This document shows, piece after piece, positions 28,043-64,000 of a stretch of DNA of 64,000 nucleotides. A program made the position numbers and the translations under genes. This stretch comes from a bacterium (GTDB taxonomy: Bacteria; Myxococcota_A; UBA9160; UBA4427): positions 62,001 to 126,000 of the forward strand of contig JANSYR010000008.1 of assembly GCA_024742285.1 (NCBI GenBank), read 5' to 3'. Positions within the stretch are counted from its first letter, which is position 1. The number at the start of each line of letters is the position of its first letter. The notes below the pieces were generated by a model. The model worked only from the letters and a program-made list of their open reading frames with translations, had not been told where the DNA came from and did no database searches.

Positions 28043-28119
28043 GCGCCGGTAGCTCAGCTGGATAGAGCATCAGGCTTCGAACCTGAGGGTCGGGGGTTCG
28101 AATCCCTCCCGGCGTACCA
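28043..28119 (+). tRNA. tRNA-Arg(UCG)
   Basis: A full cloverleaf can be drawn: acceptor stem 28043-28049 with 28109-28115 (first pair G-U), D stem GCTC/GAGC, anticodon stem TCAGG/CCTGA with loop CTTCGAA (anticodon TCG at 28077-28079, reading CGA codons), five-base variable region, T stem GGGGG/CCCTC with loop TTCGAAT, discriminator A, and encoded CCA at 28117-28119. The integrase gene of the adjoining ICE ends inside it on the other strand, so it is the insertion target. The tRNA appears intact. Confidence 0.97.
28054..28119. other. Probable left attachment site (attL) inside tRNA-Arg
   Basis: Integrases of this type insert into the 3' part of tRNA genes. Here the last ~20 codons of the integrase (ending RDSNPRPSGSKPDALSS) are the complement of the tRNA sequence. 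The core crossover is therefore somewhere within the anticodon-to-CCA part. No second copy of the tRNA 3' end is visible in the window, so the right end lies beyond 64,000. Confidence 0.6.
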
Positions 28120-29346
28120 TAAATTCCCTTTGAAATCGCCAAGTTCCGTTAGGTCACCTTCATCGTCTGAAACGGTGTTTTCGTCCATTGTGACCAAATT
28201 GTGACCAACTGTGACCATCGTGAGCCCGTCGAGTGCGTCGACGACGCCGTGCTCTTCGGGGTCCGGCAGCAAATGGCCATAGGTGTCGCACGTGATTTGG
28301 ATGCTCGAGTGCCCGAGCCAACGTGAGACCTTGAAGATGGGCACGCCGGCCAGGAGCAGGTCCGTTGCGAACGTGTGCCGCAGGTCGTGAAACGGCTTGG
28401 GGTGACCTTCGATCCCGGCACTCTTCACGATGCGCTTGAAGCGGTCTCCGAAGCGCCGGTCGTCCTGGACGGACGCCGTCTTTCGAACGGACGGGAAGAG
28501 CCATTCGCCTCGGTCCCGCTTCGCGTTGAAGACGATCTGGTCCTGAAGAACCGAGGCGAGCTCGGTCGATAGCGGAAGGGTTCGCCGCGACTTCTCGGTC
28601 TTCGGGTTATCCACCTTTCCGTCGATGATGCGGCGCCGAACGTGGAGATACCGGTCGACGAGGTCGACATCGTCCGGCCTCAACCCGAGGACCTCGGAGC
28701 GCCGGAGCCCGGCGCGCAGTCCCAGGAGGGCGCCAGCGTAAATCCAGCGGTCTTTCTTCTTCGCCGCCTTCAGGAGCTTGTCTCTCTCCTCGATCGTGTA
28801 GGGCTGCGCGCCACTCCCCTCGGCTGGAAGCTCATCCGTTCGCAGACCTGCCGCCTTCAGGAGCTGCGCCTTGTTGGCGAACGGATTCTTGCTCAGGATG
28901 CCCTGAACACTGACGGCATCCTCGAAGGCGCTCTGAAGAGCTCCGACAAGATTCGCGACGGTCTTCCTCGACCGCCTCCCCTCTTCGCCGTCAATCAAAT
29001 GGCGGACAATCGCAAGGGCGTCGGAACGGGAGATTTCGGCGAGGAGCTTCGAGCCAATCAGAGGCTTCACCTCGCGAACGGCCTGCGCGTAGGTGAGGTA
29101 CGAGCCGGGCCGAAGGCCACCTTCGACGCGAGCGAGCCAATCTTCCGTGTGCTTCGCGAATGTGAGCCCGCGCTGGGGCTCGCTCGGAAACGGCGTCTTC
29201 CCGAGAAGCATCCTGGCTTCGACTTGCTTCGCGAGTTTCTCGGCGAGCTCGCGGTTCGACGTGTCGGCGGATCTCCGGATACGCTGGCCATTCCATCGAA
29301 AGTCCAGCCACCAGACGTCTCCGCGTCGTCGCAGCCTTACCGCCAT
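28054..29346 (-). CDS. int: Tyrosine-type site-specific integrase
   Basis: A complete 430-residue phage-type integrase. An N-terminal arm-binding part and SAM-like core-binding region (about 60-160) precede the catalytic domain with Arg215 (GLRRSEVLGL), Lys249, HDLRH (His320, Arg323), His346 (WLGHSS) and the nucleophile Tyr356 (DTYGH). The C-terminal tail is encoded by the complement of the tRNA-Arg gene, as in many ICE integrases where recombination at the tRNA preserves both genes. It starts six bases after the stop of the excisionase-like gene. Confidence 0.95.
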   Translation of the reverse strand: MAVRLRRRGDVWWLDFRWNGQRIRRSADTSNRELAEKLAKQVEARMLLGKTPFPSEPQRGLTFAKHTEDWLARVEGGLRPGSYLTYAQAVREVKPLIGSKLLAEISRSDALAIVRHLIDGEEGRRSRKTVANLVGALQSAFEDAVSVQGILSKNPFANKAQLLKAAGLRTDELPAEGSGAQPYTIEERDKLLKAAKKKDRWIYAGALLGLRAGLRRSEVLGLRPDDVDLVDRYLHVRRRIIDGKVDNPKTEKSRRTLPLSTELASVLQDQIVFNAKRDRGEWLFPSVRKTASVQDDRRFGDRFKRIVKSAGIEGHPKPFHDLRHTFATDLLLAGVPIFKVSRWLGHSSIQITCDTYGHLLPDPEEHGVVDALDGLTMVTVGHNLVTMDENTVSDDEGDLTELGDFKGNLWYAGRDSNPRPSGSKPDALSS

Positions 29347-35699: not shown

Positions 35700-36218
35700 C
35701 TACAGAACACCTCGCTCACGTGAGAGCTCAATACGAAGCGACGCTTCGAGCTCGTTCACAGCGTCCTCGTCACCCAAATCGAAGGCCGGCGAGCCCGACG
35801 CCACTCGGATGCGTTCTGCATCGCGCGGCAGGACTCGCGTGAAGAGCCTCCAGTAAAGCAGCGATGCATTCCGATTCGGAAGCGCAGCCATCGAAGCCTC
35901 CGATAGCGCGCAAAGACACTCCGCGTCGGTTCCCAGCCGCATATCGGCTTTTCGCGTGACCCGTTCGAGAAGCTCCCGGCAGTGATGCCGATAGACCTCC
36001 GAAGAGACGTGCCTCAACGTATCCGGCGGGCAGAGAAACCGAAACGCCGAGTTGATCTCCTTCTGGGAGACGGGATGTCTCGCTCGTGCGAACGCAATCT
36101 CCTCTTCCGCAATCTCCATACATCGAAAGGCGAGCTCGGCCGCGCCCAAGATGTCTGGAGCAATGAAGCCAACCAACCGTTGCTGAAGTGTTCTCGTGTC
36201 GTGAATCGATTGTGTCAC
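35700..36218 (-). CDS. Hypothetical protein downstream of a structured leader
   Basis: A 172-residue, mainly helical protein starting at a GTG (36218). No motif is recognised. The GGAGG ribosome binding site is at the end of a long stem of the RNA-like element at 36228-36378, so its translation may be controlled by that structure. It lies downstream of radC on the same strand, about 200 bases away. Between it and the gene at 35554 lie 145 bases with no visible feature. Confidence 0.55.
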   Translation of the reverse strand: MTQSIHDTRTLQQRLVGFIAPDILGAAELAFRCMEIAEEEIAFARARHPVSQKEINSAFRFLCPPDTLRHVSSEVYRHHCRELLERVTRKADMRLGTDAECLCALSEASMAALPNRNASLLYWRLFTRVLPRDAERIRVASGSPAFDLGDEDAVNELEASLRIELSRERGVL

Positions 36219-36227
36219 TGGTTCTTC

Positions 36228-36378
36228 CTCCGTCCGAAGCGGGATGCTTGGATGAAGGGCAGACCGTCACGCGCGGCGCTCCGTCCAGGCTCGCGAAGCG
36301 ACCGCAGGGAAGCCTTGACGGAGCGCGAGGAGCGCGTGCTAGAGGGGAGCCCGCCAAGCAGCCCGCGAAGGACGGAGG
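36228..36378 (-). ncRNA. Structured leader element, copy A (radC-motif-like)
   Basis: Read on the minus strand, an 8-bp stem (36371-36378 with 36228-36235), a small internal loop and a 12-bp stem with one mismatch (36356-36367 with 36239-36250) enclose a core shared with copy B at 36911-37034. The core has CCGTC/GACGG and AGGC/GCCT stems around a small hairpin with loop TTC. The outer stem differs in sequence from copy B but pairs equally well, which is evidence for a conserved structure. The 3' strand of the outer stem includes part of the ribosome binding site of the gene at 36218. I recall a 'radC motif' RNA described upstream of radC and other mobile-element genes; identity is untested. 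Confidence 0.6.
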
Positions 36379-36420
36379 AGACGGGAGTCGTCCATCGAAT
36401 CGAGAAGACTCGATACCGAC

Positions 36421-36888
36421 TCAGGGGGCCTTCGGAAGTGTTCCTTGCTCGAGGAAGGAGTGATAGCCACCCTCGCGAGTCCAGATGACGTGGTCGACGA
36501 GTCGAACGCCTAGCAGGGTCCCCGCCTCGGCGAGTCGGTCTGTGATTTGCTGGTCTTCAGCACTCGGTCGAGGGTCGCCCGAAGGATGGTTGTGACCGAT
36601 CACGAGAGCGACGGCTCCCAGGAGGAGCGCACTCTGGAACACCTCGCGTGGATGGACGAGAGATGCGGTTGCCGTTCCGACGGAGACGACGGAATGCCCG
36701 GCTGGTCGATGTCGACCGTCTAGATAGAGGGCAATGAAGTGTTCTCGCGCGTGGTCGGAGACGATTCGACGGGCAAGATGGACGAAGTGATCGGGACGAG
36801 AGACTGGAGTCTGAGACTTGAGCGATCGACCTCGGTAGCGGATTTCGACTTCGCGGACGGCAACGGTTTCGAGTGAATTGGATTTCAT
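36421..36888 (-). CDS. radC: RadC-family JAB-domain protein
   Basis: A 155-residue protein made of the RadC JAB/MPN domain alone, without the helix-hairpin-helix part of full-length RadC. HNHPSGDPRPSAED at residues 99-112 is the JAMM motif (His99, His101, Ser, Asp112). Such short RadC proteins are common in mobile elements and restriction islands; the name does not imply a proven repair role. AGGAGG lies seven bases before the ATG at 36888. A structured leader (36911-37034) lies directly upstream. Confidence 0.9.
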   Translation of the reverse strand: MKSNSLETVAVREVEIRYRGRSLKSQTPVSRPDHFVHLARRIVSDHAREHFIALYLDGRHRPAGHSVVSVGTATASLVHPREVFQSALLLGAVALVIGHNHPSGDPRPSAEDQQITDRLAEAGTLLGVRLVDHVIWTREGGYHSFLEQGTLPKAP

Positions 36889-36910
36889 GAGACTTCCTCC
36901 TTGGAGCCTT

Positions 36911-37034
36911 GGGTGGCTCGGCTGGAGGGCAGACCAGCGCTCGCGACGCGCCGTCCAGGCCCGCGAAGCGGCCGAAGGGAAGCCTTGACGGTTTGAGCGG
37001 GAGCGAGGGCTATGGTGGGCCCAGCCGAGCCACC
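36911..37034 (-). ncRNA. Structured leader element, copy B (radC-motif-like), upstream of radC
   Basis: A perfect 15-bp stem (37020-37034 with 36911-36925) encloses a core with CCGTC/GACGG and AGGC/GCCT stems and a 4-bp hairpin with loop TTC. The core is nearly identical to copy A. The inner hairpin shows a compensatory change: a T-A pair in copy A is C-G here. The element ends about 23 bases before the radC start, the right place for a cis-acting leader RNA. A match to the published radC motif is likely from position, but untested. Confidence 0.65.
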
Positions 37035-37210
37035 CGGACTCGACAAGGGTCTGGGAACTAAGAAAGTTCTATCTTGGTGGATCGAGGGATTTCGCCCTTT
37101 CATTGCGGATACTTACGGCCCGAAATACAGTTGGAGGGGAATCACTTCGCCCGTATTCACGATCACTTTCTTGGGCGCAATTCGAGAAGAACCTGCAGTT
37201 AAGGAGCGGC

Positions 37211-39322
37211 GTGGCACAGATCGACAACACTGCAGCGATTGAGAAAAGACTCTGGACCGCGGCCGACACCCTGCGGGCCAATTCCAACTACGCCAGCAAC
37301 GAGTATTTCCTCCCAGTCATGGGCCTCGTCTTCCTGAGACACGCCTACAGCCGCTACTTGGGCGTAAAGGACGAGATCGAAGTCAGCCTCCCCTCCAGAG
37401 GCGGAAAGAAGCGGGCTCCGACCAAAGAGGACTTTTCCCAGAAGAGCGCCATTTTCCTCCGTCCGAAAGCCCAGTTCGACCACCTGGTCGCGCTCACCGA
37501 CAGCGACGACCGCGCCAAAGCCATCGTCGACGCGATGGAATCCATCGAGGCCGATTACGACACGCTCCGAGGTGTTTTGCCGAAGGCGGAATACCAGGAG
37601 CTCGACAACGACGTCCTTGGGCAACTGCTGCGCTCGCTGAATCCAGAAGAGCTGAAGACGGCCAAAGGCGACGTCTTCGGTCGCATCTACGAATACTTCC
37701 TCACGCAGTTCGCCGACCTGAAGGCGCACGATAACGGCGAGTTCTTTACTCCGATTTCACTCGTCGCACTGATCGCGAACGTGCTCGAGCCCGAGCACGG
37801 AACAGTGCTCGACCCGGCCTGCGGTTCGGGCGGGATGTTCGTCCAGAGCGCGCACTTCGTAGAGCAACACGATGCGAGCCCGAGGGAACTCACCTTCCGC
37901 GGACTCGAGAAGAATGCGACGACGATTCGCCTGGCGAAAATGAACCTCGCGGTTCATGGCCTCGAGGGCGATATCCAGCGAGCCATCACCTACTACGAAG
38001 ACCCGCATGAGCTCATCGGCAAGGCCGACTTCGTGATGGCGAACCCGCCGTTTAACGTCGACGAGGTCGATGCCGAAAAGGTGAAGAGCGACCCGCGGCT
38101 TCCCTTTGGCCTTCCAGGCGTGAACAAGGAAGGCAAGGTCTCAAACGGGAACTACCTGTGGATTAGTTACTTCCACAGCTACCTGAGCGAGAAGGGACGG
38201 GCTGGATTTGTGATGTCGTCCCAGGCCTCGAGTGCCGGACGCGACGAAGCCAAGGTTCGCCGCAAGCTCATTGAGTCGGGCGATGTCGACCTGATGGTGG
38301 CCATCCGTCCGAATTTCTTTTACACGCGAACCGTTCCCTGTGAGCTCTGGTTTCTGAATCGCGATAAGCCGAAGGCCCGCCGCGACCAAGTGCTGATGCT
38401 CGATGCGCGCAACATCTACCGCAAGGTGACCCGAAAGATTTATGACTTCAGCCCCGAGCAGATCGAGAATCTCCTGGCCGTCGTCTGGCTCTCTCGCGGC
38501 GAAGGCAAGCGCTTCCTTGAAGTCGTCGCCTCGCGCCTCGAGCGCATGCTCGCTGAGGGTGCGAACTGCTTCGGAGCTAAGGCTTCGGAAGGGGACGGCG
38601 CCCCTGTTCCGCAGCACCTCGAGGCGCTCGCGTCCCTTCGCAGGGAAACGGACCCCTTCCTGACGACCCTCGACGCTGGTGCTCCGCATGCCGAGACGCT
38701 CGGCGAACTCGACAGCGTGCTCGCGACGTTTCGGGCCGACGTCGAGACCTACGAAAAGGCACTCGCAAAGGAACGAACAGCATGGGCCAAGAAGGCGCCC
38801 GGGACGGCCAAGGCGCTGGTCCAGGCTGTTGAGCGGATGGCGCCGCTCGCTGAGACGAGCCGCGACCTGGTCAAACAGGCGGACCTTCTCACCAAGCTCG
38901 CTGGCCGCTTGATTGACACCTGCGAAGGTGAGCTTGACGCGCGCGAGAGCAAGGTGTGGTCAGCTCGTGACATCACGCGGGCGCGAAAGGCGGCGGACAG
39001 TGCCCGCCACGCCGCCGTCGAGCAGCTGAAGCAGGTTCGATATTTCCACCGCCAGACGGAATGGTTGACCGACCGCTTTCCGGACGCCGAATTCCGAGAC
39101 GTCGAAGGGCTTGTGAAGCTCGTCGACCGTGCCGAGCTCGAGGCCAACGACTGGAGCCTCACACCGGGCCGCTATGTCGGTGTCGCACCAGAAGAAGAGG
39201 ACGAGGACTTCGACTTTGAGGAAACGCTTCGCGACATCCACGTGGAACTCGCCGGCCTGAATTCTGAGGCGGTCGAGCTTGCTGAAAAGATCGCCAAAAA
39301 CTTCGAGGAGCTCGGGGTTTGA
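37211..39322 (+). CDS. hsdM: Type I restriction-modification methyltransferase HsdM
   Basis: A 703-residue HsdM. The GTG at 37211 follows AAGGAG and gives the usual N-terminus (AQIDNTAAIEKRLWTAADTLR). LDPACGSGGMF (about residue 210) is the AdoMet-binding motif and NPPF (about 288) the N6-adenine catalytic motif. A C-terminal coiled coil for HsdS contact follows. HsdM methylates adenine in the target chosen by HsdS. The hsdS start overlaps its stop (TTGA). Upstream of it lies the leader of divergent radC. Confidence 0.95.
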   Translation: MAQIDNTAAIEKRLWTAADTLRANSNYASNEYFLPVMGLVFLRHAYSRYLGVKDEIEVSLPSRGGKKRAPTKEDFSQKSAIFLRPKAQFDHLVALTDSDDRAKAIVDAMESIEADYDTLRGVLPKAEYQELDNDVLGQLLRSLNPEELKTAKGDVFGRIYEYFLTQFADLKAHDNGEFFTPISLVALIANVLEPEHGTVLDPACGSGGMFVQSAHFVEQHDASPRELTFRGLEKNATTIRLAKMNLAVHGLEGDIQRAITYYEDPHELIGKADFVMANPPFNVDEVDAEKVKSDPRLPFGLPGVNKEGKVSNGNYLWISYFHSYLSEKGRAGFVMSSQASSAGRDEAKVRRKLIESGDVDLMVAIRPNFFYTRTVPCELWFLNRDKPKARRDQVLMLDARNIYRKVTRKIYDFSPEQIENLLAVVWLSRGEGKRFLEVVASRLERMLAEGANCFGAKASEGDGAPVPQHLEALASLRRETDPFLTTLDAGAPHAETLGELDSVLATFRADVETYEKALAKERTAWAKKAPGTAKALVQAVERMAPLAETSRDLVKQADLLTKLAGRLIDTCEGELDARESKVWSARDITRARKAADSARHAAVEQLKQVRYFHRQTEWLTDRFPDAEFRDVEGLVKLVDRAELEANDWSLTPGRYVGVAPEEEDEDFDFEETLRDIHVELAGLNSEAVELAEKIAKNFEELGV

Positions 39323-40542
39323 GCTGGCGAAGGACACCTCTCGGTGAGCATATCGACCTCATCTCGGGCCCAGCCTTCAAAAGCGCCCACTTCACCGCAG
39401 ACCCTGAAGATGTACCTCTCGTAAAGGGCGAAAACCTAGGGCAGGGTCAAATTCTCTGGGCGAAATCCAAGTACTGGCCCCGAGCCGACACAGAAAAGTA
39501 CGAGAGGTTCTTTCTTGAGCCCCACGATGTAGTGCTCGCAATGGACCGACCTTGGGTTCCTGCCGGACTGAAATTTGCGGCAGTCCCCCCCGACGCTCCT
39601 CGAGCATTACTGGTCCAGCGAGTTGCTCGTATCAGGCCAGCGAGCAGCCTAACCTCTGCGTTTCTAAGGTATGTAATCGCGTCTCCGGAGTTCTGTGCCT
39701 ATGTCAAGAACATAATGGGTGGGGTCGGAGTTCCGCACATTAGCGGCGACCAGATTCGCCGCTTTGAGTTTTCACTGCCACCGCTTCCAGAGCAGCACGC
39801 AATCGCGGACTTACTTTCCGCCTACGACGACCTGATCCAGAACAACCGCCGCCGGATCCAGCTTCTTGAGCTTTCGGTGCGGCTGCTCTTCAAGGAGTGG
39901 TTCGTCCACCTGCGATTTCCGGGCCACGAGCACGTCAAGATCGTCGACGGTGTCCCGGAGGGCTGGGCGCGTAGGTCGCTCAACGATGTCGCTGACTTCC
40001 GTCTCGGCAAGATGCTCGACCAGAAGAAGAATAAGGGCGAACCGAGGCCATATCTCGCGAACAAGAACGTGCGGTGGGGCGAGTTCGATTTCTCGGAGTT
40101 GCGCGAGATGCGCTTTGAAGAGAGCGAGACCGAGAAATACGGTCTGAAGCACGGCGACATCCTTATGTGCGAGGGCGGTGAGCCGGGGCGATGCGCGATA
40201 TGGAGAAACCAGCTTCCTGGAATGATGTTTCAGAAGGCGCTGCACCGTATTCGACCGTCCGGAGGTCTGGACTCTCGATTTTTGTTCCACAGCTTGCTCT
40301 TCAAGGGAAGAACAGGTCGACTAGCGGGCCTCTTTACAGGTGCGACGATCAAGCATCTCCCGCGCGAGAAGCTCGCCAAAGTCGAGATCGATATCCCGAC
40401 GGTGAGGCTGATGGAACTCTTCCTCGAGAACGCCGGTCCGCTTGAAGACCAGATCAATGTGCTGCAAACCGGGATTCGGCGCGCGTCAGCGGCCCGGGAC
40501 CTATTGCTCCCCCGCCTGATGTCGGGAGAGATCGCCGCATGA
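39319..40542 (+). CDS. hsdS: Type I restriction-modification specificity subunit HsdS
   Basis: A 407-residue HsdS with two target-recognition domains (about residues 1-150 and 210-370), each followed by a conserved helical spacer; LPPLPEQHAIADLLSAYDDLIQNNRRRIQLLE marks the central one. It starts with TTG, overlapping the hsdM stop by four bases, and its stop overlaps the hsdR ATG in the same way. The DNA target cannot be read from the sequence. Confidence 0.93.
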   Translation: MSWRRTPLGEHIDLISGPAFKSAHFTADPEDVPLVKGENLGQGQILWAKSKYWPRADTEKYERFFLEPHDVVLAMDRPWVPAGLKFAAVPPDAPRALLVQRVARIRPASSLTSAFLRYVIASPEFCAYVKNIMGGVGVPHISGDQIRRFEFSLPPLPEQHAIADLLSAYDDLIQNNRRRIQLLELSVRLLFKEWFVHLRFPGHEHVKIVDGVPEGWARRSLNDVADFRLGKMLDQKKNKGEPRPYLANKNVRWGEFDFSELREMRFEESETEKYGLKHGDILMCEGGEPGRCAIWRNQLPGMMFQKALHRIRPSGGLDSRFLFHSLLFKGRTGRLAGLFTGATIKHLPREKLAKVEIDIPTVRLMELFLENAGPLEDQINVLQTGIRRASAARDLLLPRLMSGEIAA

Positions 40543-43500
40543 CGCCGCCGCTGACCGAGGACTCGTTGGTCCAGCAAACCACCGCGGATTATCTCCGTGT
40601 CGTGCTCGGTTGGGAATCGGTCTACGCCTACAACAACGAGACCTTCGGGCCTGAGAGTACGCTGGGACGCGCCTCCGACCGCGATGTCGTGCTCACGCGC
40701 TATTTCCGCGAAGCTCTCGTCCGACTGAATCCGGACCTTCCGGACGACGCGTACGACGAAGGAGTGCGCCAAGTCGTCGAGGTAAGCGCAGCGCAGACCG
40801 CGCTTGCGATCAATCGCGAGAAGCACGACCTGCTCCGCGAAGGCATCACCGTCGCGTTCCGGAACGCGAAGGGCGAGCGCGAGAAGCGCCGCCTGAGCGT
40901 CTTCGACTTCGCTGAGCCAACGAACAACCATTTTCTTGCGGTCCGCGAGCTTTGGGTGCGCGGAGCACTCTACCGACGCCGGGCCGACATTGTCGGCTTC
41001 GTCAACGGCGTCCCGCTCTTGTTTGTCGAGCTCAAGAACGTCCATAAGGACATTCGCGCGGCCTACAACAAGAACCTTGCCGACTATAAAGACACCGTCC
41101 CACACCTCTTTCACCACAACGCCGTGATTCTGCTCGCGAACGGCATCGACGGAAAGCTCGGCTCGCTCTCGAGTCGCTACGAGCACTTCCACGAGTGGAA
41201 GCGGCTCGCCGAAGACGAGCCAGGCGTCGTCAACATGGAGACGCTCCTCAAGGCGGTGTGCACGAAGGAGAACTTTCTCGACCTCTTCGAGAACTTCATT
41301 GTCTTTGACGATTCGACGGGGGCGCCCGTCAAGATTGTCGCTCGCAACCACCAGGTGCTCGGCGTGAACCGGGCGCTCGAGGCCGTCCGCGACCGCGAAG
41401 CCCGCGACGGAAAGCTTGGCGTGTTCTGGCATACCCAGGGTTCGGGCAAGAGCTACTCGATGGTCTTTCTCACGCGAAAGGTCCACCGAAAGCTCGGTGG
41501 GAACTTCACCTTCGTCGTCGCAACCGACCGCGACGACCTCGATACCCAGATTTACAAGACCTTCGCTGGCTGCGGCCTGGTCGACAATGACCGCGACCCT
41601 TGCCGGGCCGGCAGCGGTGAGCACTTGACCGAGCTTCTCGGTCAGCACAAGGCCTATGTCTTCACGCTCGTCCAGAAGTTCAATCGGGAGGTCAAGTCCG
41701 AGGCCGACGTTTACTCGACGCGCGGAGACATCATCGTCATCACCGATGAAGCGCACCGCACGCAGTACGGAATGCTCGCGCTCAATATGCGAAACGCGCT
41801 CCCGAACGCGAGCTACATGGGATTCACGGGCACTCCGCTCTTCAAAGACGACGAGATTACGCGGAAGGTCTTCGGCGATTACATTTCGACCTACGACTTC
41901 AAGCGCGCCGTCGACGACAACGCGACCGTGCCCCTCTACTACGACGCCCGCGGCGAGCGCCTAGCGCTCGCCACGGACGACCTGAACGAACGCATCGCCG
42001 AGAAGCTCGAGGAGCTTGCGACCGATGACCTCGACGCACAGCAGCGCCTCGAAGCCGAGCTCCGGCGCGAGTATCACATCATCACCGCCGGAAGCCGGCT
42101 GGAGCAAGTCGCTCGCGACTTCGTCGAGCACTACTCGACGGCCTGGGAGACGGGAAAGGCGATGCTCGTCTGCATCGACAAGGTCACCTGCGTCCGCATG
42201 CACGGACTCATCGAGCAGTTTTGGGACGAGCGCGTCGCCCAGCTCGAGGCCGAACTACCCAGCGTCACCGACGAGCAGGAAGAGCTTTCCCGCCGGCGGC
42301 AACTCGACTGGATGCGCGAGACGCGGGCCGCAGTCGTCGTAAGCGAGGAGCAGGGCGAGGTGGAAAAGTTCCGACGCTGGGACCTCGAAATCGAGCCCCA
42401 CCGCCGGCTCCTCAAGGAAGGCTTTGACCTGCCCGATGGCTCACGCATCGACCTCGAGACGGCCTTCAAGAAGGACGAACATCCGTTTCGGATTGCCGTG
42501 GTTTGCGCCATGTGGCTCACGGGCTTCGACGTGCCGAGCTTGTCGACGCTCTACCTCGACAAGCCGCTCAAGGCCCACACACTCATGCAGGCGATTGCGC
42601 GAGCGAACCGCGTGCATGAGGGCAAGAACAACGGCCTTATTGTCGACTACTGCGGAATTCTCAAGAATCTGCGAAAAGCGCTCGCGACTTTTGCCAGCAC
42701 GGCCGACGCCGGCCGCGGAGGGGAAGGCGAAGAAGACGACCAGGACCCGACCCGACCGCAAGAAGATCTGCTCGCCGACCTGGCCGAATCAATCGCGTTT
42801 GTTCGGGCTTATCTAGACGAACGCGGCGCCTCACTCGACGCGATTATCAACGAGACGAGTTTCGTGCGCATTGCGGCCATCGTCGCGGCGAAGGAGGCCG
42901 CGAATGAGAACGATGAATCGCGCAAGCGCTTCGAGGTGATGTGCCGAGAGGTCTTCAAGAAGTTCAAGGCCTGTATCAATCAGCGCCCCGCAATCAACGC
43001 CCATCGCCCTGCCCGGGACGCCGTCGACATCATCTACAAGAGCCTCCAGGAAGACCGCGAGAAGGCGGACATCACCGACATCTTGCGAGCACTCCACGAG
43101 GTGGTCGATCAGGCCGTCGAGACCCGCGCGGTGCGCGAGGTCCCCGAACCCGGCGAGCCCTACGACATCAGCCGCATCGACTTTGATCGCTTGCGCGCTG
43201 AGTTCGAGCGTAGCCCCGCGAAGAACACCACGGTTCAGAACCTTCGCCAGGCGATCGAAGATCGGTTGGGGCAGCTGCTTGCGCAGAATCCGTTGCGCAC
43301 TGATTTCCAGCAGCACTACGAAGAGCTTGTCGCCGACTACAACCGCGAGAAGGACCGGCTCACGATTGAAGCCACTTTCGAAGCCTTGTTGCGCTTCATC
43401 GAGGAACTGAGCGACGAGGACCAGCGCGCGATGCGAGAAGGCCTCGATGAGGAGTCGCTCGCGATCTTCGATTTGATCAAGAAGCCGGACCTCGGAGCAA

Positions 43501-43769
43501 ACGAAGTCGAGCAGGTGAAGACGGTCGCAGTAGAGCTCCTGACGACACTCAAAGCCGAAAAGCTGCGCGTCGATCAGTGGCGAGAGAAGGAGTCAACTCG
43601 CGACGCGGTGCGTGTCGAGATTCGGGACTTCCTTTGGAGCGACGGGACTGGCTTGCCGATTGACGCCTACGGGGAAGATGAGGTGACTGAGCGCTCCGAG
43701 GATGTGTACCGGCACGTGTTCAGAGCGTATCCGACGGTGCCGTCGCCGTTCTACAGCGAAGTGGCGTAG
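40539..43769 (+). CDS. hsdR: Type I restriction endonuclease subunit HsdR
   Basis: A 1076-residue HsdR, full length. The N-terminal nuclease domain (about residues 1-250) has the PD-(E/D)xK motif around FVELKN. Walker A THTQ-type sequence TQGSGKSYS lies near residue 300 and the DEAH motif (ITDEAHRTQYG) near 400; TGFDVPSLSTLY and QAIARANR are later SF2 helicase motifs. It translocates and cuts unmethylated DNA with HsdM2HsdS. No truncation or frameshift was seen, so the system looks functional. Confidence 0.95.
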   Translation: MTPPLTEDSLVQQTTADYLRVVLGWESVYAYNNETFGPESTLGRASDRDVVLTRYFREALVRLNPDLPDDAYDEGVRQVVEVSAAQTALAINREKHDLLREGITVAFRNAKGEREKRRLSVFDFAEPTNNHFLAVRELWVRGALYRRRADIVGFVNGVPLLFVELKNVHKDIRAAYNKNLADYKDTVPHLFHHNAVILLANGIDGKLGSLSSRYEHFHEWKRLAEDEPGVVNMETLLKAVCTKENFLDLFENFIVFDDSTGAPVKIVARNHQVLGVNRALEAVRDREARDGKLGVFWHTQGSGKSYSMVFLTRKVHRKLGGNFTFVVATDRDDLDTQIYKTFAGCGLVDNDRDPCRAGSGEHLTELLGQHKAYVFTLVQKFNREVKSEADVYSTRGDIIVITDEAHRTQYGMLALNMRNALPNASYMGFTGTPLFKDDEITRKVFGDYISTYDFKRAVDDNATVPLYYDARGERLALATDDLNERIAEKLEELATDDLDAQQRLEAELRREYHIITAGSRLEQVARDFVEHYSTAWETGKAMLVCIDKVTCVRMHGLIEQFWDERVAQLEAELPSVTDEQEELSRRRQLDWMRETRAAVVVSEEQGEVEKFRRWDLEIEPHRRLLKEGFDLPDGSRIDLETAFKKDEHPFRIAVVCAMWLTGFDVPSLSTLYLDKPLKAHTLMQAIARANRVHEGKNNGLIVDYCGILKNLRKALATFASTADAGRGGEGEEDDQDPTRPQEDLLADLAESIAFVRAYLDERGASLDAIINETSFVRIAAIVAAKEAANENDESRKRFEVMCREVFKKFKACINQRPAINAHRPARDAVDIIYKSLQEDREKADITDILRALHEVVDQAVETRAVREVPEPGEPYDISRIDFDRLRAEFERSPAKNTTVQNLRQAIEDRLGQLLAQNPLRTDFQQHYEELVADYNREKDRLTIEATFEALLRFIEELSDEDQRAMREGLDEESLAIFDLIKKPDLGANEVEQVKTVAVELLTTLKAEKLRVDQWREKESTRDAVRVEIRDFLWSDGTGLPIDAYGEDEVTERSEDVYRHVFRAYPTVPSPFYSEVA

Positions 43770-44066
43770 CCCGACTCGACGCGTTTTTGAGAAGGGCTCT
43801 GGTCCTTTCACCCTTCGAGAGGGTCTCGACCGAGGGGGTCTGTCGGCCTCGGCTGATGCCCCCTAGGTGATCCTGACCTTCAACGGCATAGTGGCGTAAA
43901 ACCCGCATCTCTGTGTTGACACCGAAACTCCCGTGCAGATCATGCCTGCACCCCCCGGTCCGTCCGAAATTCGGCGCCCCCCACCGTCGAGGGGCCTTCG
44001 CGTGTCCTCGCCTTATGGGTGCGTGCCATTAACGCGCCGCATTCATTGGGCGGGGGAATTTGCAAG
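43770..44066. promoter_or_regulatory. Spacer between hsdR and the MBL-membrane protein unit
   Basis: Nearly 300 bases without a gene. GC-rich inverted repeats near 43830-43864 (CCGAG/CTCGG and GGGGG/CCCCC) may end hsdR transcription, though no T run follows. A perfect -35 hexamer TTGACA occurs at 43916-43921 with only a weak -10 17 bases later; it could drive the next two genes. Confidence 0.35.
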
Positions 44067-45146
44067 TTGGGATACGAAATCGACTTCTTGCCTGCCGGTG
44101 GCGGGTCACACAGCGGAGATGCAATCACCCTGCGCTTCGGGAACCTCTATGGCACTCGCCAAGAACAAACGGTCATCGTCATCGACGGCGGCTTCAAATC
44201 CACTGGCGAAAAACTTGTCGAACACATTAGGACCACCTACGGCACCGCGATCGTGGACCTAGTGATTTCGACGCACCCCGATTCCGACCATACGAATGGT
44301 CTTGCTGTCGTGCTGGAGGAGCTCGAGGTCAAGAATCTCGCAATGCACCAACCGTGGAAGCACACCGAAGATATCGCCGACTTGTTCAAGGACGGGCGGG
44401 TCACCAACAATAGCGTCAGCGAGCACCTACAGCGCTCACTTGAGTCGGCAAAGACCCTCGAAGAGATTGCCCAGTCGAAGGGCATTCCTATTATTGAGCC
44501 CTTCGAGGGGACAACGGGTTGGGATGGCACCGTCCGGGTCGTCGGACCCTCAGTTGAATACTACGAATCGCTACTTCCAGAGTTCAGAGGAACCCCCGAC
44601 GCTGCCTCGCCAACAACAGTCGTCGGAAAGGCTGCTCGAGGCCTGATGGATTTCGTCCGCACAGTGGCTGAAGGATTCGGAATCGAAACCTTAGGTGACG
44701 ACGGTGAAACCAGCGCCGAGAACAACTCGAGCGTCATCCTGCTCCTTTCCGTCAACGGACAGACCGCTCTGCTGATGGGGGACGCTGGAATGCCGGCACT
44801 CACTCGGGCCGCCGACTACCTTGACTCCATCGGATTTAACAGCGACACCCTTCAGTTGATTCAGGTGCCGCATCACGGGAGCCGCCGAAACGTTGGGCCC
44901 ACGATTCTCGACCGTCTGCTCGGTCCCCGCCTGGACAGAGACCAGAAGCTCAGAACTGCGCTTGTGTCCTGCGCGCCTGACGGAGCGCCGAAGCACCCAG
45001 CGAAGAAGGTCACGAACGCCTTCCGAAGGCGTGGCGCTTGGGTCTACGAGGTGAAGTCAGCGACGACGCACCATTCCCGCGACGCACCTGACCGGGGCTG
45101 GGTCCAAGCTGTCCCCACGCCGGTCTACGACGTGGTGGAGGAGTAG
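44067..45146 (+). CDS. ComEC/Rec2-type MBL-fold hydrolase (first of two)
   Basis: About 359 residues from a TTG at 44067 preceded by GGGGGAA; a GTG at 44019 would add 16 residues. The zinc motif is HPDSDH (His70, Asp72, Asp74, His75), followed by LLMGDAG and VPHHGSRRNVG, the pattern of the ComEC/Rec2 C-terminal MBL domain. Related domains are nucleases or phosphodiesterases. It has no membrane segment itself, but the next gene, ten bases after its stop, encodes a membrane protein. It shares only the motif set with the second MBL gene at 48188. Confidence 0.82.
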   Translation: MGYEIDFLPAGGGSHSGDAITLRFGNLYGTRQEQTVIVIDGGFKSTGEKLVEHIRTTYGTAIVDLVISTHPDSDHTNGLAVVLEELEVKNLAMHQPWKHTEDIADLFKDGRVTNNSVSEHLQRSLESAKTLEEIAQSKGIPIIEPFEGTTGWDGTVRVVGPSVEYYESLLPEFRGTPDAASPTTVVGKAARGLMDFVRTVAEGFGIETLGDDGETSAENNSSVILLLSVNGQTALLMGDAGMPALTRAADYLDSIGFNSDTLQLIQVPHHGSRRNVGPTILDRLLGPRLDRDQKLRTALVSCAPDGAPKHPAKKVTNAFRRRGAWVYEVKSATTHHSRDAPDRGWVQAVPTPVYDVVEE

Positions 45147-45156
45147 ACTGAACATC

Positions 45157-45885
45157 ATGAAGCTTGAACTCGACCGATACACTCGCCGTGCGCGTCTGGC
45201 ACCGGCGCTCTTGGTGCCCTTGCCCGTTGCGTTCGCGTTCGTGGCGGTTCTTCCTGACACTTGGGCGGCCGCCGGCACGTTCTGGGGGCTGCTCCTCTAC
45301 GCCGGCGGCTCCTACTTTCTCACCCAAATCGGAAGGGCATCGGGCAAATCCAAGCAGGAGTTTCTATTCGATGCCTGGGGAGGCGCCCCAACGACGAGAG
45401 ATCTTCGGCATCGAAACGCGTCGAACCCGACGCTGCTCCTGCGACGGCATATGCAGCTTGTGCGGCTCCTCCCGGATTTGTCGTTCCCGTCGGCTGCGGA
45501 GGAAGAAGCTAATCCGGAAGCTGCCGACCACACCTATGAGACTGCAACCACCTTCCTTCGAACGAGCACAGGCGACCACGAAAAATTCCCCCTCGTGTTC
45601 GAAGAGAATTGTTCTTATGGATTCCGACGGAACCTCTGGGGGCTTAAGCCTTGGGGCCTTTCCTGCTGCCTGTTGGCCCTCGCTGTCATTGGCCTTCGAT
45701 ACGGATTGTTTTCGGATTCAGTCAACGAACTAATGTCGATTCTCGCCGCGCCAGCGCTGCTTCTCTCAATCGGCTTTCTACTTGTCTGGGTAGGCGTGAT
45801 CACTCCCGATTGGGTCAAGTCATCAGCGGATGCCTATTCGGAGAGACTGCTTGAATCCATCGAGCGGCTTTCCGCCTCCGAATAA
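45157..45885 (+). CDS. Membrane protein paired with MBL-fold protein
   Basis: A 242-residue protein with two hydrophobic segments near the N-terminus (about 14-33 and 36-56) and two near residues 170-190 and 195-215, flanking a soluble loop of about 110 residues. The loop begins with a Lys/Gln-rich segment (GRASGKSKQEFLFDAWGG). No known enzymatic motif is seen. Its tight linkage to the MBL gene suggests a two-component unit in which it acts as membrane effector or anchor (inference). It ends 46 bases from the convergent E2-E1-JAB gene. Confidence 0.6.
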   Translation: MKLELDRYTRRARLAPALLVPLPVAFAFVAVLPDTWAAAGTFWGLLLYAGGSYFLTQIGRASGKSKQEFLFDAWGGAPTTRDLRHRNASNPTLLLRRHMQLVRLLPDLSFPSAAEEEANPEAADHTYETATTFLRTSTGDHEKFPLVFEENCSYGFRRNLWGLKPWGLSCCLLALAVIGLRYGLFSDSVNELMSILAAPALLLSIGFLLVWVGVITPDWVKSSADAYSERLLESIERLSASE

Positions 45886-45930
45886 CACAGCCATTCTGAC
45901 GCGCCCCCATATTGCGAGTTCGATTGATGG

Positions 45931-48180
45931 CTACTCCACAACGTGGACACCAACACGGTCGGGAGAAACGATCAATAGGAGCGTAGGCAGGCCCATTCCT
46001 AGGTTCTCGAGGCGGAAGCCCTCTGCGGTCTTTCGATCTGCTGCTGACAAGCTGCTGCCACCAGCTGGATGCGAATGCCAGCTTCCAACGGGGACCAATC
46101 GCAGGCCAGAACCTCGACGCAGCTGCTTCTCTTCTTCGCTTCGACCGGCCGGGGGGAGCTTGAGGCGATTTGTATCTGCGACGGTTGTGGGAGGCTCGGC
46201 ACACGCCGAAACAACAGTGATCCGCCTCAAAGGAGGATCGATACCGCCGTACAGATAGCCACCAGTCTCACAGGGAGACGACTGCTGCATCAAATCGTTC
46301 ATTCGAGCGGACACACCGGGCGCGATACGAACCTCCCACCCGCTCGCGTTGGGGTCGACGTCGAATGAGTCGACATCCAGCCAACGCCAACCAATAGGCT
46401 CCCCACTCGGCGAGAGCTCATTCAAACCGAGTCCAGATCGATGGTCCACTTCGGCGAGCAGTTGGGAGAGAGCCGGCATGAAGGCGGCCGCATGCGCCGC
46501 AACCTTCCATTGGGGCATCCGGGTGGTCGCTGACGCACATCCGAACCCAGCAGCAAAGGCGCCAGTTTCGACCGGATCGGTGAGCTCACCGCGTAAAGCG
46601 GCCGATACCGAATCGTCCTCCGCAGCAACGCGACAAAGGAAATAATAGAGATCAAGGACATCAGGGTTTCGGCCTTCTGACTCAATCGACTGCACACCGA
46701 GCTGACCCTGTTGATAAATTTCGCCGCGAGCGATGCGTGGAAGCCATCGACTTCGCGCGAGGGCGCGCCTCACGCCGTCGGATGCAGTGGAGTCAATGAC
46801 CACTGCGTCAGAGGGCACCCCCGTTCCCAGATCACGCGGATTCACGCCTATCACATCAGTATTCACTGCTCGAACGTCATGAGATTCGAACAGGTTAAGC
46901 GAGCGCGAGATACGGGACTGGACCAAGCCCTTTGCCAGCCCAATTTCGGGAATGATGGCGGCATGTCGTGCCAGATTGTGCGACCTCACCAAGTCCGAGT
47001 CGACCACACCAATACAGTGGCCTCCCGCCCTCGCAATCATTTCCCCTAGTTGACTACCAAGCGCCCCGTAACCGACCAGGTATCCGGGCTTCAGAGGTTT
47101 CGTACCAGACACGTCCGCAAGCAGGGCAGAGCCAGGCTGAGGGTCAAGGAGAACATTCTCGACCACAGAATCGGTCGTATCTAAGCGACCTATCGGGCAA
47201 GCAGAAATCGAATATCCGCGCAGCTCGATTGCGCGCGCTTCGGGATCGGACGACAGGCCGAAAATCTCACTCATCATTGGTATGGGTCGACGGATACCGA
47301 GAAGTACAATCACCCGACTTGGCGAAAAGTCATTGATTGCGAACGCTGCAACCGCCTCCGTAAAACTCTCCAAGAGACCGAAAGCATTCAATTGCTCGAA
47401 CAAATCTTTGCCATTCGAGCAGTCCAGAAATCCTGGGTTGGATTCGACTCGATCTGCCGGCTGCATCAAGAAGAGGCCCAGAGCGGTCTGGCCCCCGGCC
47501 GAACCATCGTCGGCATTATCCGACGCCGCTCGAAAACTATCAACGCCGCCGGATAGCCCTCGGCACAGAGTCTCGTGCTTGAACAGCGCGGCCGAACCGC
47601 TGACCGTTGCGACGAAAGTTGCCCAAGAACCGTCGGAGAGGGAGTCGCTCCCATACTCTTGAAAGCTCGCGCCCTGAACGATTCCGATGACAGTCGAGTT
47701 AGGTAATGGAATTGGCTCCCACCCACCCATATTGAGAGAGCTGGTCTTCGCATCAAGCAGCCAGCGGCAGAGACGCTTCAGAAAACCGGTGACGCCACGA
47801 CGTTCATAGAGCGTTGCGTGCCCCTCTCGTGCGAGGCAGATGCTAACCGGGGAGTCCTCGGCGACAGGATTCAGGTGAGTCAAGTTACGAGGAAAGTCGG
47901 GGCGATCGCTGTAAACCTGCGGACCTGCCAGTCCGACCCCGTGCTCGGAGTACACGAAGGAAATCGGCTCGGTGTCTCGAATATCAGTATCAGGTGGCCC
48001 ATCAAGCTCGTCAGTCGCCAGAAGAAAAGAGACAGCGATCCGCTTGTCCTCAAGCCTTGAAACGCGGATTGAATTGCGCATGACTGCCAGCTGGTCGTAG
48101 ATTTGCGCAATCTCTCTAGAAAGCGCCGGCCATCGATCTCCTTCCGCGAGTTCGGAACCACTTTCGCGAAAGAGCTTCAA
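45931..48180 (-). CDS. Triple-module E2-E1-JAB ubiquitin-like conjugation protein
   Basis: A 749-residue fusion of three ubiquitin-system-like modules. Residues about 20-150 resemble a prokaryotic E2 domain: THLN at 101-104 and Cys115 in PVSICL. Residues about 365-560 form a ThiF/E1 adenylation domain with the GxGxxG loop near 370-375 and the DSD...HNLARH motif at 394-406. Residues about 620-749 form a JAB/JAMM peptidase: ETGG (Glu638) and WHSHP with His702, His704 and Asp715. Such triple-module proteins are known in bacteria next to MBL-fold genes. The start is a TTG at 48180, eight bases after the MBL stop; an in-frame stop lies just upstream, so coupling is likely. No separate ubiquitin-like gene is adjacent. 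Confidence 0.85.
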   Translation of the reverse strand: MKLFRESGSELAEGDRWPALSREIAQIYDQLAVMRNSIRVSRLEDKRIAVSFLLATDELDGPPDTDIRDTEPISFVYSEHGVGLAGPQVYSDRPDFPRNLTHLNPVAEDSPVSICLAREGHATLYERRGVTGFLKRLCRWLLDAKTSSLNMGGWEPIPLPNSTVIGIVQGASFQEYGSDSLSDGSWATFVATVSGSAALFKHETLCRGLSGGVDSFRAASDNADDGSAGGQTALGLFLMQPADRVESNPGFLDCSNGKDLFEQLNAFGLLESFTEAVAAFAINDFSPSRVIVLLGIRRPIPMMSEIFGLSSDPEARAIELRGYSISACPIGRLDTTDSVVENVLLDPQPGSALLADVSGTKPLKPGYLVGYGALGSQLGEMIARAGGHCIGVVDSDLVRSHNLARHAAIIPEIGLAKGLVQSRISRSLNLFESHDVRAVNTDVIGVNPRDLGTGVPSDAVVIDSTASDGVRRALARSRWLPRIARGEIYQQGQLGVQSIESEGRNPDVLDLYYFLCRVAAEDDSVSAALRGELTDPVETGAFAAGFGCASATTRMPQWKVAAHAAAFMPALSQLLAEVDHRSGLGLNELSPSGEPIGWRWLDVDSFDVDPNASGWEVRIAPGVSARMNDLMQQSSPCETGGYLYGGIDPPLRRITVVSACAEPPTTVADTNRLKLPPAGRSEEEKQLRRGSGLRLVPVGSWHSHPAGGSSLSAADRKTAEGFRLENLGMGLPTLLLIVSPDRVGVHVVE

Positions 48181-51185: not shown

Positions 51186-52202
51186 TCAAGCTCCGTAGGG
51201 GCGTTCAAAGCTGATGTCTCGAGTGACGTGGACCGTGAAGCGCGCACCTGCTGCAACCTCGATCGTGGGTGTTCGATTCAGCTCGCGGCGAAGAATCTCG
51301 TTCGACGTTTGGCCGAGTTGCTGACCGAGCGCGCCGGCCATGATCTCGCGGGGATCAGAACCGGCTCGATCGAAGCTTCCCTGCGAGATTTGCGTCCCGC
51401 CCGAGATCACGGCCAACATGGCCGCAGTGCCGAAGGAAGCCAGCAGATGTCGATTGAGCTCGCCGGGTACACCGACGGTGCCGGCGAGATCCGCAGCCGG
51501 CTCCTCCGGCAATCGCTGAGACTCCCCATTCGGGAAGATCAGCCGGGAGCATCCCAACACGAGGCGCGTCTGCCCCCGGGCCGCTGCCGACTGGTACTCG
51601 CAGAGCAGCCGGCTGCCCTTGGGTATCAGAACGTGGTTGCTCGACACCGTGTCCCGAATGTCGTCCGTCACCTGCGCGACGACCGGCCCGGGCTGTTCAG
51701 AGTTGATGGCGGTCATCAGCGCGGCCGGAATGAGCGTGCCGGCCTTGACGTCATACCCAGGAACCTGACTATCGTGTTCGGGGCGGGCGCGGCTCGGCGC
51801 GCCCAATTCGGGAGCACGACCGAGCGGCTGCGCCGCGCCCGCGGGCGGTGCGACCGCGGCGAAGGACACCGAAAGGGGTGAGTCCATGGCCGCCTGAAGC
51901 GCCTCGGACCGAGGCCGAGGACGGGTTGAACGAACCGGCGAGGCCTCGACGGGGAGCGCCACGACTCCGTCGGGCTCGCTTTCCCACCACGGTTCGTTGG
52001 TATTGGGCGCGATCGGCCGGTCTCGACCCTCGCCGGCCTCTCGGCGAGAGGAGCCCAACGACAGAGAAAAGACGAGCATGATGAGGGCACAGGCCGCGAC
52101 CGCGACCCAGACGAGTCGCCGGTTTAGCCGCGCAATCGGCGGCCGGAGCTCGTCGAGCGAATACTTGAGACGTTCGACGGGTGACCGCGGGGTCCGGACC
52201 AT
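51186..52202 (-). CDS. trbI: TrbI/VirB10-like conjugation protein
   Basis: A 338-residue VirB10 homologue. A short cytoplasmic part, one transmembrane helix (about residues 30-50), a proline-rich periplasmic linker, and a C-terminal beta-barrel domain with KAGTLIPAALMTAINSEQPGPV and GSRLLCEYQSAA are as in other TrbI proteins. It spans the envelope and forms the core complex with TrbG and TrbF. The start (ATG 52202) overlaps the trbG stop (TAATG). Confidence 0.92.
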   Translation of the reverse strand: MVRTPRSPVERLKYSLDELRPPIARLNRRLVWVAVAACALIMLVFSLSLGSSRREAGEGRDRPIAPNTNEPWWESEPDGVVALPVEASPVRSTRPRPRSEALQAAMDSPLSVSFAAVAPPAGAAQPLGRAPELGAPSRARPEHDSQVPGYDVKAGTLIPAALMTAINSEQPGPVVAQVTDDIRDTVSSNHVLIPKGSRLLCEYQSAAARGQTRLVLGCSRLIFPNGESQRLPEEPAADLAGTVGVPGELNRHLLASFGTAAMLAVISGGTQISQGSFDRAGSDPREIMAGALGQQLGQTSNEILRRELNRTPTIEVAAGARFTVHVTRDISFERPYGA

Positions 52203-53191
52203 TAGCGACGTCCCCCTCGGCGCTTGTGACCCGGCTTCACACGACGGGGCTCGCGACGCTTCTTCGCCTTGACGGTCACGCTGCGCTCTCCGAGAACGAG
52301 CACTGCGGTCTCGAAGAGGCCATCGACGACATAGGTGTCGCCATGAACGCGGTAGTTACGCACTTCTCGCTCGGCTTCATCACGCACGAAGAGCACGGGC
52401 GTGCGGGCTCCACCTCCAGTCGCGACCGCCTCAGGAAACTGAATGAACGTGCGCGCTCCGTCGTCGAACGCCTCGACGGGCGTCCAGCTCGGGGCGTTGC
52501 GCCCGGTCGGCGTGATCTCGTACTGAAAATTCAGCGACTCGACATCACGGATCTTGGGCGACTCGCCCGAGAACAGCCGAGAAAAGAAGCCGCCCGAGTC
52601 GCCACCACTGGCCACCGCCCGATTCCAGGCGGCAACGGCTTCGCGCGGGTAGTAGAAGCGAGCGTTTCGAACGTACTCGCCCTTCTTGTCCTTTCTCGAG
52701 ATCAGAGCCAGGTGATACGCACGCCGATCCGTCATGATGACGAGATTGGTGGCGATGCCGTACTCGCGTGGCTTGACGACCAGATGGGGAATGGCCTCCG
52801 CACCGCTCTGGGTAAACGCCAGTTCAGCGTTCCAGCGAGCCGTATCCCCGAACATGACCGAATTGACGGCTTCGCCCGCCTGAAGCTCGATGTCACAAAC
52901 GCGAAGAGGTTTGCAATAGAGCACCGGATTGCTTTCGCCGAAAGGCCACAGCACGAAGCCGGGACGACGCACGACAGGCGCATCGCCGGTCCGAATGAAC
53001 TCCTCCAGCGCTTCCTCCGCGAATTGCGCATCACCGCCCAGGTGCGCTCCGGTGCCGGGCGGCGGCGTCATCTCAATCGGCTCCTTCACGACGAGCGTCG
53101 CTTCCACGAGCGGGGCCGGAGGGCTGTCGGTCGTCGCACAGCCGAGCGAAATACCAGCAAGGAGAATCAGCGGTAGGAGTTTCGTCTTCAT
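52202..53191 (-). CDS. trbG: TrbG/VirB9-like conjugation protein
   Basis: A 329-residue VirB9 homologue. The ATG at 53191 overlaps the trbF stop (ATGA). The N-terminus is a lipoprotein-type signal (LILLAGISLGCATT). The C-terminal part, FQYEITPTGRNAPSWTPVEAFDDGARTFIQFP, is the VirB9 signature that contacts VirB10 and the outer membrane ring. Confidence 0.92.
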   Translation of the reverse strand: MKTKLLPLILLAGISLGCATTDSPPAPLVEATLVVKEPIEMTPPPGTGAHLGGDAQFAEEALEEFIRTGDAPVVRRPGFVLWPFGESNPVLYCKPLRVCDIELQAGEAVNSVMFGDTARWNAELAFTQSGAEAIPHLVVKPREYGIATNLVIMTDRRAYHLALISRKDKKGEYVRNARFYYPREAVAAWNRAVASGGDSGGFFSRLFSGESPKIRDVESLNFQYEITPTGRNAPSWTPVEAFDDGARTFIQFPEAVATGGGARTPVLFVRDEAEREVRNYRVHGDTYVVDGLFETAVLVLGERSVTVKAKKRREPRRVKPGHKRRGGRR

Positions 53192-58126: not shown

Positions 58127-58138
58127 CAACGCTCTCCG

Positions 58139-58794: not shown

Positions 58795-58797
58795 GGT

Positions 58798-59784: not shown

Positions 59785-59808
59785 CGGGCAGACCTGACCG
59801 CCGAGGGC

Positions 59809-63999: not shown

Positions 64000-64000
64000 T

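Follow-up and report, generated by a model that had tools for sequence, protein, structure and literature searches.

Two related hairpins precede neighbouring genes of an integrative and conjugative element

The window, the 64,000-nucleotide stretch of contig JANSYR010000008.1 (Myxococcota_A) analysed here, covers much of an integrative and conjugative element (ICE), which has type IV secretion genes, a coupling protein, a relaxase and an integrase sited at a tRNA gene whose end is repeated further along. The genes that matter for the argument are these:

28054-29346, minus strand: ICE integrase gene (PF00589, E 7.6e-29), overlapping a tRNA gene at 28043-28116 on the plus strand
35700-36218, minus strand: 172-aa gene, its protein without a family in Pfam, PHROGs or NCBIfam
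36421-36888, minus strand: radC, encoding a RadC-like JAB domain protein of 155 aa (PF04002, E 2.9e-37)
51186-63472, minus strand: conjugation genes TrbI, CagX, VirB8, TrbL, VirB4 (two ORFs), VirB3, VirB11 and TraG (Pfam)
63409-64000, minus strand: relaxase gene, running on to about 65088 beyond the window (PF11843 DUF3363, E 1.6e-15)

The relaxase, at the right edge of the window, is DUF3363/VirD2-like and matched PF03432 (Relaxase) at E 6e-4, below the cut-off of that family. Three further copies of the tRNA 3' end, a repeat of 47-53 bp, lie at about 96721, 100202 and 102564 (window coordinates; L263), 68-74 kb to the right, and suggest that the ICE has alternative right ends or that elements are stacked here. 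Two overlapping ORFs, 55701-56891 (TraG P-loop part) and 56888-58129 (CagE/TrbE part), encode the VirB4-type ATPase; the split may be genuine or may come from a frameshift or from faulty assembly. Positions 44019-48180 hold a metallo-beta-lactamase-like gene, a 242-aa gene and a gene for a fused Prok-E2_A/ThiF/Prok-JAB protein; this group resembles a ubiquitin-like conjugation operon of the defence type and adjoins a type I restriction system at 37103-43769. The 172-aa protein has weak relatives in 5 actinobacterial plasmids; among 79 genomes of the order, only the host's own encodes it.

Immediately upstream of the 172-aa gene and of radC lie two hairpins, c1 and c2:

36228-36376, minus strand: hairpin c1, leader of the 172-aa gene (fold z -6.67; match to model R1 at 36241-36366)
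36281-36321, minus strand: c1 apical stem CCGTCAAGG...CCTGGACGG, exact pattern
36257-36265, minus strand: c1 GGTCTGCCC block, common to an F-plasmid Frpo copy
36900-37045, minus strand: hairpin c2, leader of radC (fold z -4.80; match to model R1 at 36911-37037)
36951-36991, minus strand: c2 apical stem CCGTCAAGG...CCTGGACGG, exact pattern
36927-36935, minus strand: c2 GGTCTGCCC block, common to an F-plasmid Frpo copy

A preliminary description of this DNA had reported two minus-strand segments with a shared core, each ahead of a minus-strand gene, and both are present as it described them. The window contains exactly two copies of the core, CCGTCAAGG-N23-CCTGGACGG, at 36281-36321 and at 36951-36991 (0 expected from 100 shuffles), and these are the only ones in the 6.5 Mb genome. 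The copies have in common the block CCGTCAAGGCTTCCCTKCGGYCGCTTCGCGRGCCTGGACGG and a second block, GGTCTGCCCT; within the core, the stretch CTTCCCTKCGG is conserved and is unpaired in c2. The foot of each hairpin stands directly before the Shine-Dalgarno sequence of its ORF.

Neither fold was equalled by any of 200 dinucleotide shuffles. When the two copies were laid on a hand-drawn structure of 31 pairs, all 62 pair cells were Watson-Crick, as against 33-46% of cells paired in slid controls; 4 of the 31 pairs had changed on both sides, none had changed on one side only and there was no G-U. The earlier claim that the outer stems differ in sequence and nevertheless pair is thereby upheld, with the reservation that two copies alone are weak proof, since 33 of 500 shuffles reached an equal level of covariation. 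Unconstrained RNAalifold returned a different, branched consensus, unlike the hand structure. The analysis confirms that c1 and c2 are two paralogous structured leaders common to two ICE genes, one of which is radC.

The leaders are not radC motif RNAs

The radC motif RNA (RF01754) occurs upstream of radC and of other mobile-element genes, and the preliminary description had suggested it as the identity of the two leaders. Scanning with Rfam gave no family at c1 or c2 at the gathering score and nothing relevant up to E 10. The RF01754 model itself had no match at either copy up to E 10, and its best match in the host genome (24.8 bits, below the 40 bits required of a member) lies elsewhere. 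True members, taken for comparison from 2 of 19 searched records (Achromobacter and Pseudomonas), aligned to the three-hairpin consensus, and the CCGTCAAGG...CCTGGACGG hairpin was absent from them. We therefore reject this identity, on the lack of an RF01754 match and on the different architecture. A literature search under the names radC motif and radC RNA found no paper. One Achromobacter genome carries 8 radC-motif RNAs above the cut-off, with two pairs on the same contigs (L264-L274 comprise the Achromobacter and Pseudomonas loci).

Promoter-like boxes on the putative transferred strand

On the plus strand, both hairpins carry boxes that resemble those of a promoter:

36315-36320, plus strand: c1 TTGACG, -35-like, in the 3' arm of the putative transferred strand, paired in the DNA fold except for the second T
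36340-36345, plus strand: c1 TAGAGG, putative -10, 19 nt past TTGACG, mostly unpaired in the plus-strand DNA fold
36985-36990, plus strand: c2 TTGACG, -35-like, in the plus-strand 3' arm, base-paired in the DNA fold apart from a partly unpaired second T
37011-37016, plus strand: c2 TATGGT, putative -10, 20 nt past TTGACG, with only TAT partly unpaired in the DNA fold

Folded with DNA parameters, the plus strands, which we presume to be those transferred, gave long imperfect hairpins of -49.2 and -48.8 kcal/mol. In both copies the canonical TTGACG is on the plus 3' arm, and the opposite arm gives TGGACG; an ordinary duplex promoter would therefore point away from radC. In a folded single plus strand, by contrast, the same box would be expected to fire toward radC. 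The putative -10 boxes match 3-4 of 6 positions at spacers of 19 and 20 nt; in c2 another box pair scores better than TTGACG/TATGGT and half of the putative -10 is paired. Because the internal loops in these folds are longer on the TTGACG arm, the helical distance would be shorter than 19-20 nt. Within the leader, the coding strand showed no good duplex promoter directed at the gene; one of another type, or one further upstream, may exist.

The layout of the ICE bears on which strand is transferred. Its relaxase and type IV secretion genes are on the minus strand at the right, and radC and its neighbours are also on the minus strand. In IncI1 the relaxase genes (nikBA) are on the minus strand, with the leading genes on the minus strand to their right. 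IncI1 leading genes read toward oriT. The order in the window equals the IncI1 order if it is wrapped round the att junction, which suggests that the plus strand would be transferred and that the entering strand would be the radC template. An oriT was not found in the ICE, so we infer the T-strand from this layout.

Searches in the host phylum and in viral contigs

Close relatives of the host are without the element: a DNA search of 60 genomes returned its own copies together with chance or partial matches, and three BLAST matches in relatives of the order (L003-L005) were dropped as lying inside coding genes. Model R1 matched in 4 of 377 genomes of the phylum: that of the host and three others (L258-L260), which resemble c1 and c2 mainly in the apical hairpin. 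Two of these, L258 and L259, have a CCGTCAAGGG...CCCTTGACGG hairpin at the start of a small gene, which we take to resemble that of a 23S rRNA-intervening four-helix-bundle protein. The palindrome CCGTCAAGG...CCTTGACGG was present in 5 of 377 phylum genomes versus 1 of 377 for its reversed control, and a 10-mer version gave 27 matches in viral contigs versus 1 for one control palindrome, most of the 27 belonging to one phage family. The pattern match in one of the phylum genomes is identical to that in a Polyangiaceae contig, which agrees with Myxococcota as the phylum. Outer flanks paired (z below -2) in 34 of 104 palindromic matches versus 13 of 117 non-palindromic ones, a comparison biased because any palindrome tends to extend. 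Hairpins of the CCGTCAAGG...CCTTGACGG kind with pairing outer flanks recur in several phyla in these loose, palindrome-biased scans, MITE-like and phage families included.

Several patterns were set aside. The loose pattern CCGTCAAGGN{8,38}CCTKGACGG, run on viral and genome contigs, gave mostly chance among the matches listed, and a tighter two-gap pattern found one contig (L079) that we judged unrelated. In viral contigs TTGACGGTCTGCCC gave 120 stretches, of which 11 passed a loose fold filter and which we judged mostly coding-like chance. Occurrences of GGGCAGACC at 59786 (the one inspected) and 78716 of the host contig, in window coordinates, were taken as chance. Palindromes of CCTTGACGG also stand in MITE-like and phage contexts: there are Clostridial MITE-like hairpins (L140, L198, L202, L245 and L247) and a phage or viral-contig family (L019, L032, L034 and relatives) in which a CCGTCAAGGGTGCGCAAGCC...CCCTTGACGG hairpin is repeated, adjoining CTTGGGCATAAAAGAGCG. 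A literature search with the stem sequence gave no relevant title among the matches listed.

Related hairpins precede RadC genes in Bacillota

We searched plasmids for RadC relatives with tblastn (2204 records) and selected 13 upstream regions for RadC alone, without reference to the motif (12 of the 25 tblastn rows listed and one further match). GTCAAGG...CCTTGAC was found within 750 nt upstream in 3 of these 13 (L413, L422 and L425), all on Bacillota plasmids, whereas it occurred 0 times in 1,166,393 bases of other loci. In that background 40 letter-shuffled control palindromes averaged 0.98 occurrences, equivalent to about 0.008 expected per 9,750 bases. The stem was absent from the other 10 regions, two of which (L423 and L426) are near-duplicates. 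Among these ten, the Geobacter and Pelobacter plasmid radC genes (L409 and L410) have a short GGGGGCA...TCTGCCCCC hairpin near the start codon, and the rest have other hairpins or nothing assignable. The Geobacter/Pelobacter hairpin, GGGGGCA...GGTGTCTGCCCCC, also contains TCTGCCC.

A blastn search with the L413 hairpin reached plasmids of Peribacillus frigoritolerans, P. psychrosaccharolyticus, Shouchella and Mesobacillus, and also an Erwinia plasmid. The gene that follows hairpins of this type is JAB/RadC (in Shouchella past one small ORF); the Mesobacillus hairpin leads into an ArdC gene (PF08401, E 2.8e-27), and that of Erwinia lies shortly after psiA. An exact CCGTCAAGGGG...CCCTTGACGG is present at L417. 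Across seven Bacillota hairpins, 8 of 24 pairs had changed on both sides, a level reached by 0 of 500 shuffles. Their central helix of 15 pairs varies solely by two-sided Watson-Crick swaps or broken pairs. It lacks G-U cells, which is what a DNA hairpin would be expected to show; such cells do occur in the outer helices. The arm on the strand opposite the gene reads AAAAAGTTTT..CCTTGAC-N17-TA in 5 of 7 (N16 if the -35 box is counted as six letters). Model R2, built from the Bacillota set only, did not report c1 or c2 at E 5 and found nothing in the host genome at E 0.01.

Features shared with Frpo and ssi

Frpo is described as a stem-loop with -10 and -35 boxes in the available portion of PMC7690428. 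According to the accessible parts of PMC11541004, anti-defence genes of plasmid leading regions lie on the T-strand, some under Frpo-like promoters, and such promoters at plasmid anti-defence genes include candidates outside Enterobacteria. They are also treated in plasmid surveys (PMC12826799, in part), where RadC beside DUF3085 is described and Frpo before RadC, in the portion available, is not. Frpo-like promoters before RadC or in Myxococcota were not described in the available portions of the literature searched, which included PMC4595007, PMC8708921, PMC11541004, PMC7690428 and PMC12826799.

The F plasmid has two Frpo copies, one of them before ssb, both with TCTGCCC after the apical stem. 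Of three relatives of the F Frpo that BLAST found in an E. coli IncI1 plasmid, one has TCTGCCC and the other two TCCGCCC. A Clostridial ICE has an element before an ArdA gene (PF07275, E 1e-44) that reads CCTTGACGGTCTGCCCC, again with TCTGCCC after the apical stem; here the coding strand carries the better -10, oriented as in an ordinary promoter. GGTCTGCCC is retained in c1 and in c2, so that TCTGCCC is common to the window, F, IncI1 and the Clostridial ICE. The Clostridial element was originally picked by a filter on TCTGCC/CTGCCC, and only in F and IncI1 does the block therefore count as an independent resemblance to the window. GGTCTGCCC lies about 14 nt further from the CCTTGACGG stem in the window than in the Clostridial element, and the parts of the two therefore do not align exactly.

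In 239 kb searched with model R2, the Erwinia element and three IncI1 copies took the top ranks at weak E values (0.04 to 1.6), and the model also missed the F Frpo copies. Published Frpo/ssi searches used BLAST at E 1e-6. Neither sequence search nor model R2 detected c1 and c2 as Frpo/ssi; the likeness is limited to the TCTGCCC block and, in the case of Bacillota, to the TTGAC stem as well. Lacking a match at either level, we say that they work like Frpo, not that they are members.

A single-stranded-DNA promoter as the favoured interpretation

We propose that c1 and c2 act as single-stranded-DNA promoters in the manner of Frpo/ssi, and put the probability of this reading at roughly 55%. During conjugation of the ICE the plus strand, the presumed T-strand, would enter the recipient single-stranded and fold into the hairpin. 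The folded strand would rebuild a double-stranded -35 region, TTGACG on the 3' arm pairing with the 5' arm, and would leave, within or next to an internal loop, a -10-like patch (TAGAGG or TATGGT). RNA polymerase of the host could bind there and, from a putative start site, read the 5' arm and the flank beyond as template, so that the adjoining minus-strand gene (radC or the 172-aa gene) would be transcribed ahead of second-strand synthesis, for which the transcript may also serve as primer.

In favour of this reading count the stem found before RadC genes that were picked without the motif, the related hairpins before RadC and ArdC reached by blastn, the covariation of the Bacillota hairpins and the lack of G-U in their central helix, the top R2 ranks of the Erwinia and IncI1 loci, the TCTGCCC block, the IncI1-like layout and the arm on which TTGACG lies. 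Against it count the failure of R2 to report c1, c2 and the F copies, the 10 of 13 RadC regions without the stem, the weak -10 boxes with their long spacers, the missing A+T-rich apical helix, the inexact alignment with the Clostridial element and the coding-strand -10 of the latter, the failure to find an oriT, the hairpin ends at the Shine-Dalgarno sequence and the CCTTGACGG palindromes of MITE-like and phage contexts.

A different account, possible in our view and somewhat doubtful, is a cis-regulatory leader RNA other than the radC motif. A duplex promoter upstream would yield an mRNA whose 5' end folds, and the hairpin base abutting the Shine-Dalgarno sequence would control how well the mRNAs of radC and of the 172-aa gene are translated or how long they last. 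The very stable RNA folds (z -6.7 and -4.8), the two copies before two co-oriented genes and the conserved core stretch CTTCCCTKCGG, unpaired in c2, all suit such a leader, as does the ending of both hairpins at the Shine-Dalgarno sequence. Against it, no Rfam family matches; c1 and c2 differ by Watson-Crick double swaps with no G-U step, four swaps being few; the relatives found upstream of other RadC genes resemble DNA hairpins of the Frpo type; and the leader's coding strand offers no good duplex promoter toward the gene, short of one of another type or further upstream. The preliminary description had concluded that the ICE uses a shared RNA switch for at least two genes. Sharing by two ICE genes stands; a switch is possible and is not the best-supported reading, the relatives being Frpo/ssi-like DNA hairpins and nothing pointing to a ligand or to a switch at the RNA level.

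It is unlikely that the hairpins only prime second-strand synthesis of the transferred ICE, as sso or ssi sites, with the following gene incidental: Frpo/ssi reportedly primes DNA synthesis and has been likened in function to sso (available parts of PMC7690428 and PMC4595007), but both copies stand exactly before gene starts, and hairpins elsewhere are associated with RadC, ArdC and ArdA genes. We consider it slightly less probable still that the inverted repeat is a duplex operator for an ICE regulator common to both genes; c1 and c2 do have the same 9-mer arms, yet the arms are imperfect (TTGACGG versus TGGACGG), and the long outer stems keep pairing despite sequence change, for which an operator has no need. 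Least probable of all is a functionless duplicated segment or a small mobile repeat carried twice. The copies lie near each other and nowhere else in the genome, as a duplication would have it, but all 62 pair cells have stayed paired while the stems diverged, each copy ends at the start of a gene, and related hairpins precede RadC in another phylum.

Hairpins related to those of the window do stand before RadC, ArdC and ArdA genes elsewhere. Building on the single-stranded-DNA promoter reading, we tentatively suggest, as an idea more likely to prove wrong than right, a cross-phylum class of such promoters, recognisable by a CCGTCAAGG:CCTTGACGG (-35) stem, often with GTCTGCC beside it. In ICEs and plasmids of Bacilli, Clostridia and Myxococcota, promoters of this class would drive the genes for RadC, ArdC and ArdA, much as Frpo/ssi drives the leading-region genes of F and IncI1. 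The window pair would be the GC-rich form of the class and would mark mobile RadC as an early establishment gene, conceivably with an anti-defence role. The established single-stranded promoters belong mainly to plasmids of enterobacteria. Should RadC genes in Bacillota and in a myxococcote ICE be preceded by a promoter of the same kind, early-expressed anti-defence genes well beyond Enterobacteria could be sought by sequence, and mobile RadC proteins would gain a role open to testing.

Comparison with known systems

Like c1 and c2, RF01754 stands before radC and can have several copies per genome; it differs in consisting of three hairpins with CCCAGG...CUUCAAGG, and c1 and c2 fail its model. 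The Bacillota hairpins resemble them in the GTCAAGG...CCTTGAC stem and in the position before RadC genes, and differ in their AAAACTTTTTG apical helix and, in 5 of 7, in TTGAC-N16-TA on the opposite-strand arm. With Frpo/ssi of F and IncI1, the window hairpins share an imperfect fold made up of an outer stem, an internal loop and an apical stem, a position before a gene for which the transferred strand (here putatively the plus strand) would be the template, TCTGCCC after the apical stem, and several copies per element. They differ in that the A+T-rich apical helix of F and Bacillota is not seen in c1 and c2, the TTGACG stem of c1 and c2 is not seen in F, the spacing between stem and TCTGCCC is not the same, and the window ICE is in Myxococcota. 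The sso/ssi primer sites likewise are folded single strands recognised by RNA polymerase, as far as the available portions of PMC4595007 and PMC7690428 describe them; c1 and c2 differ from these in being placed at gene starts.
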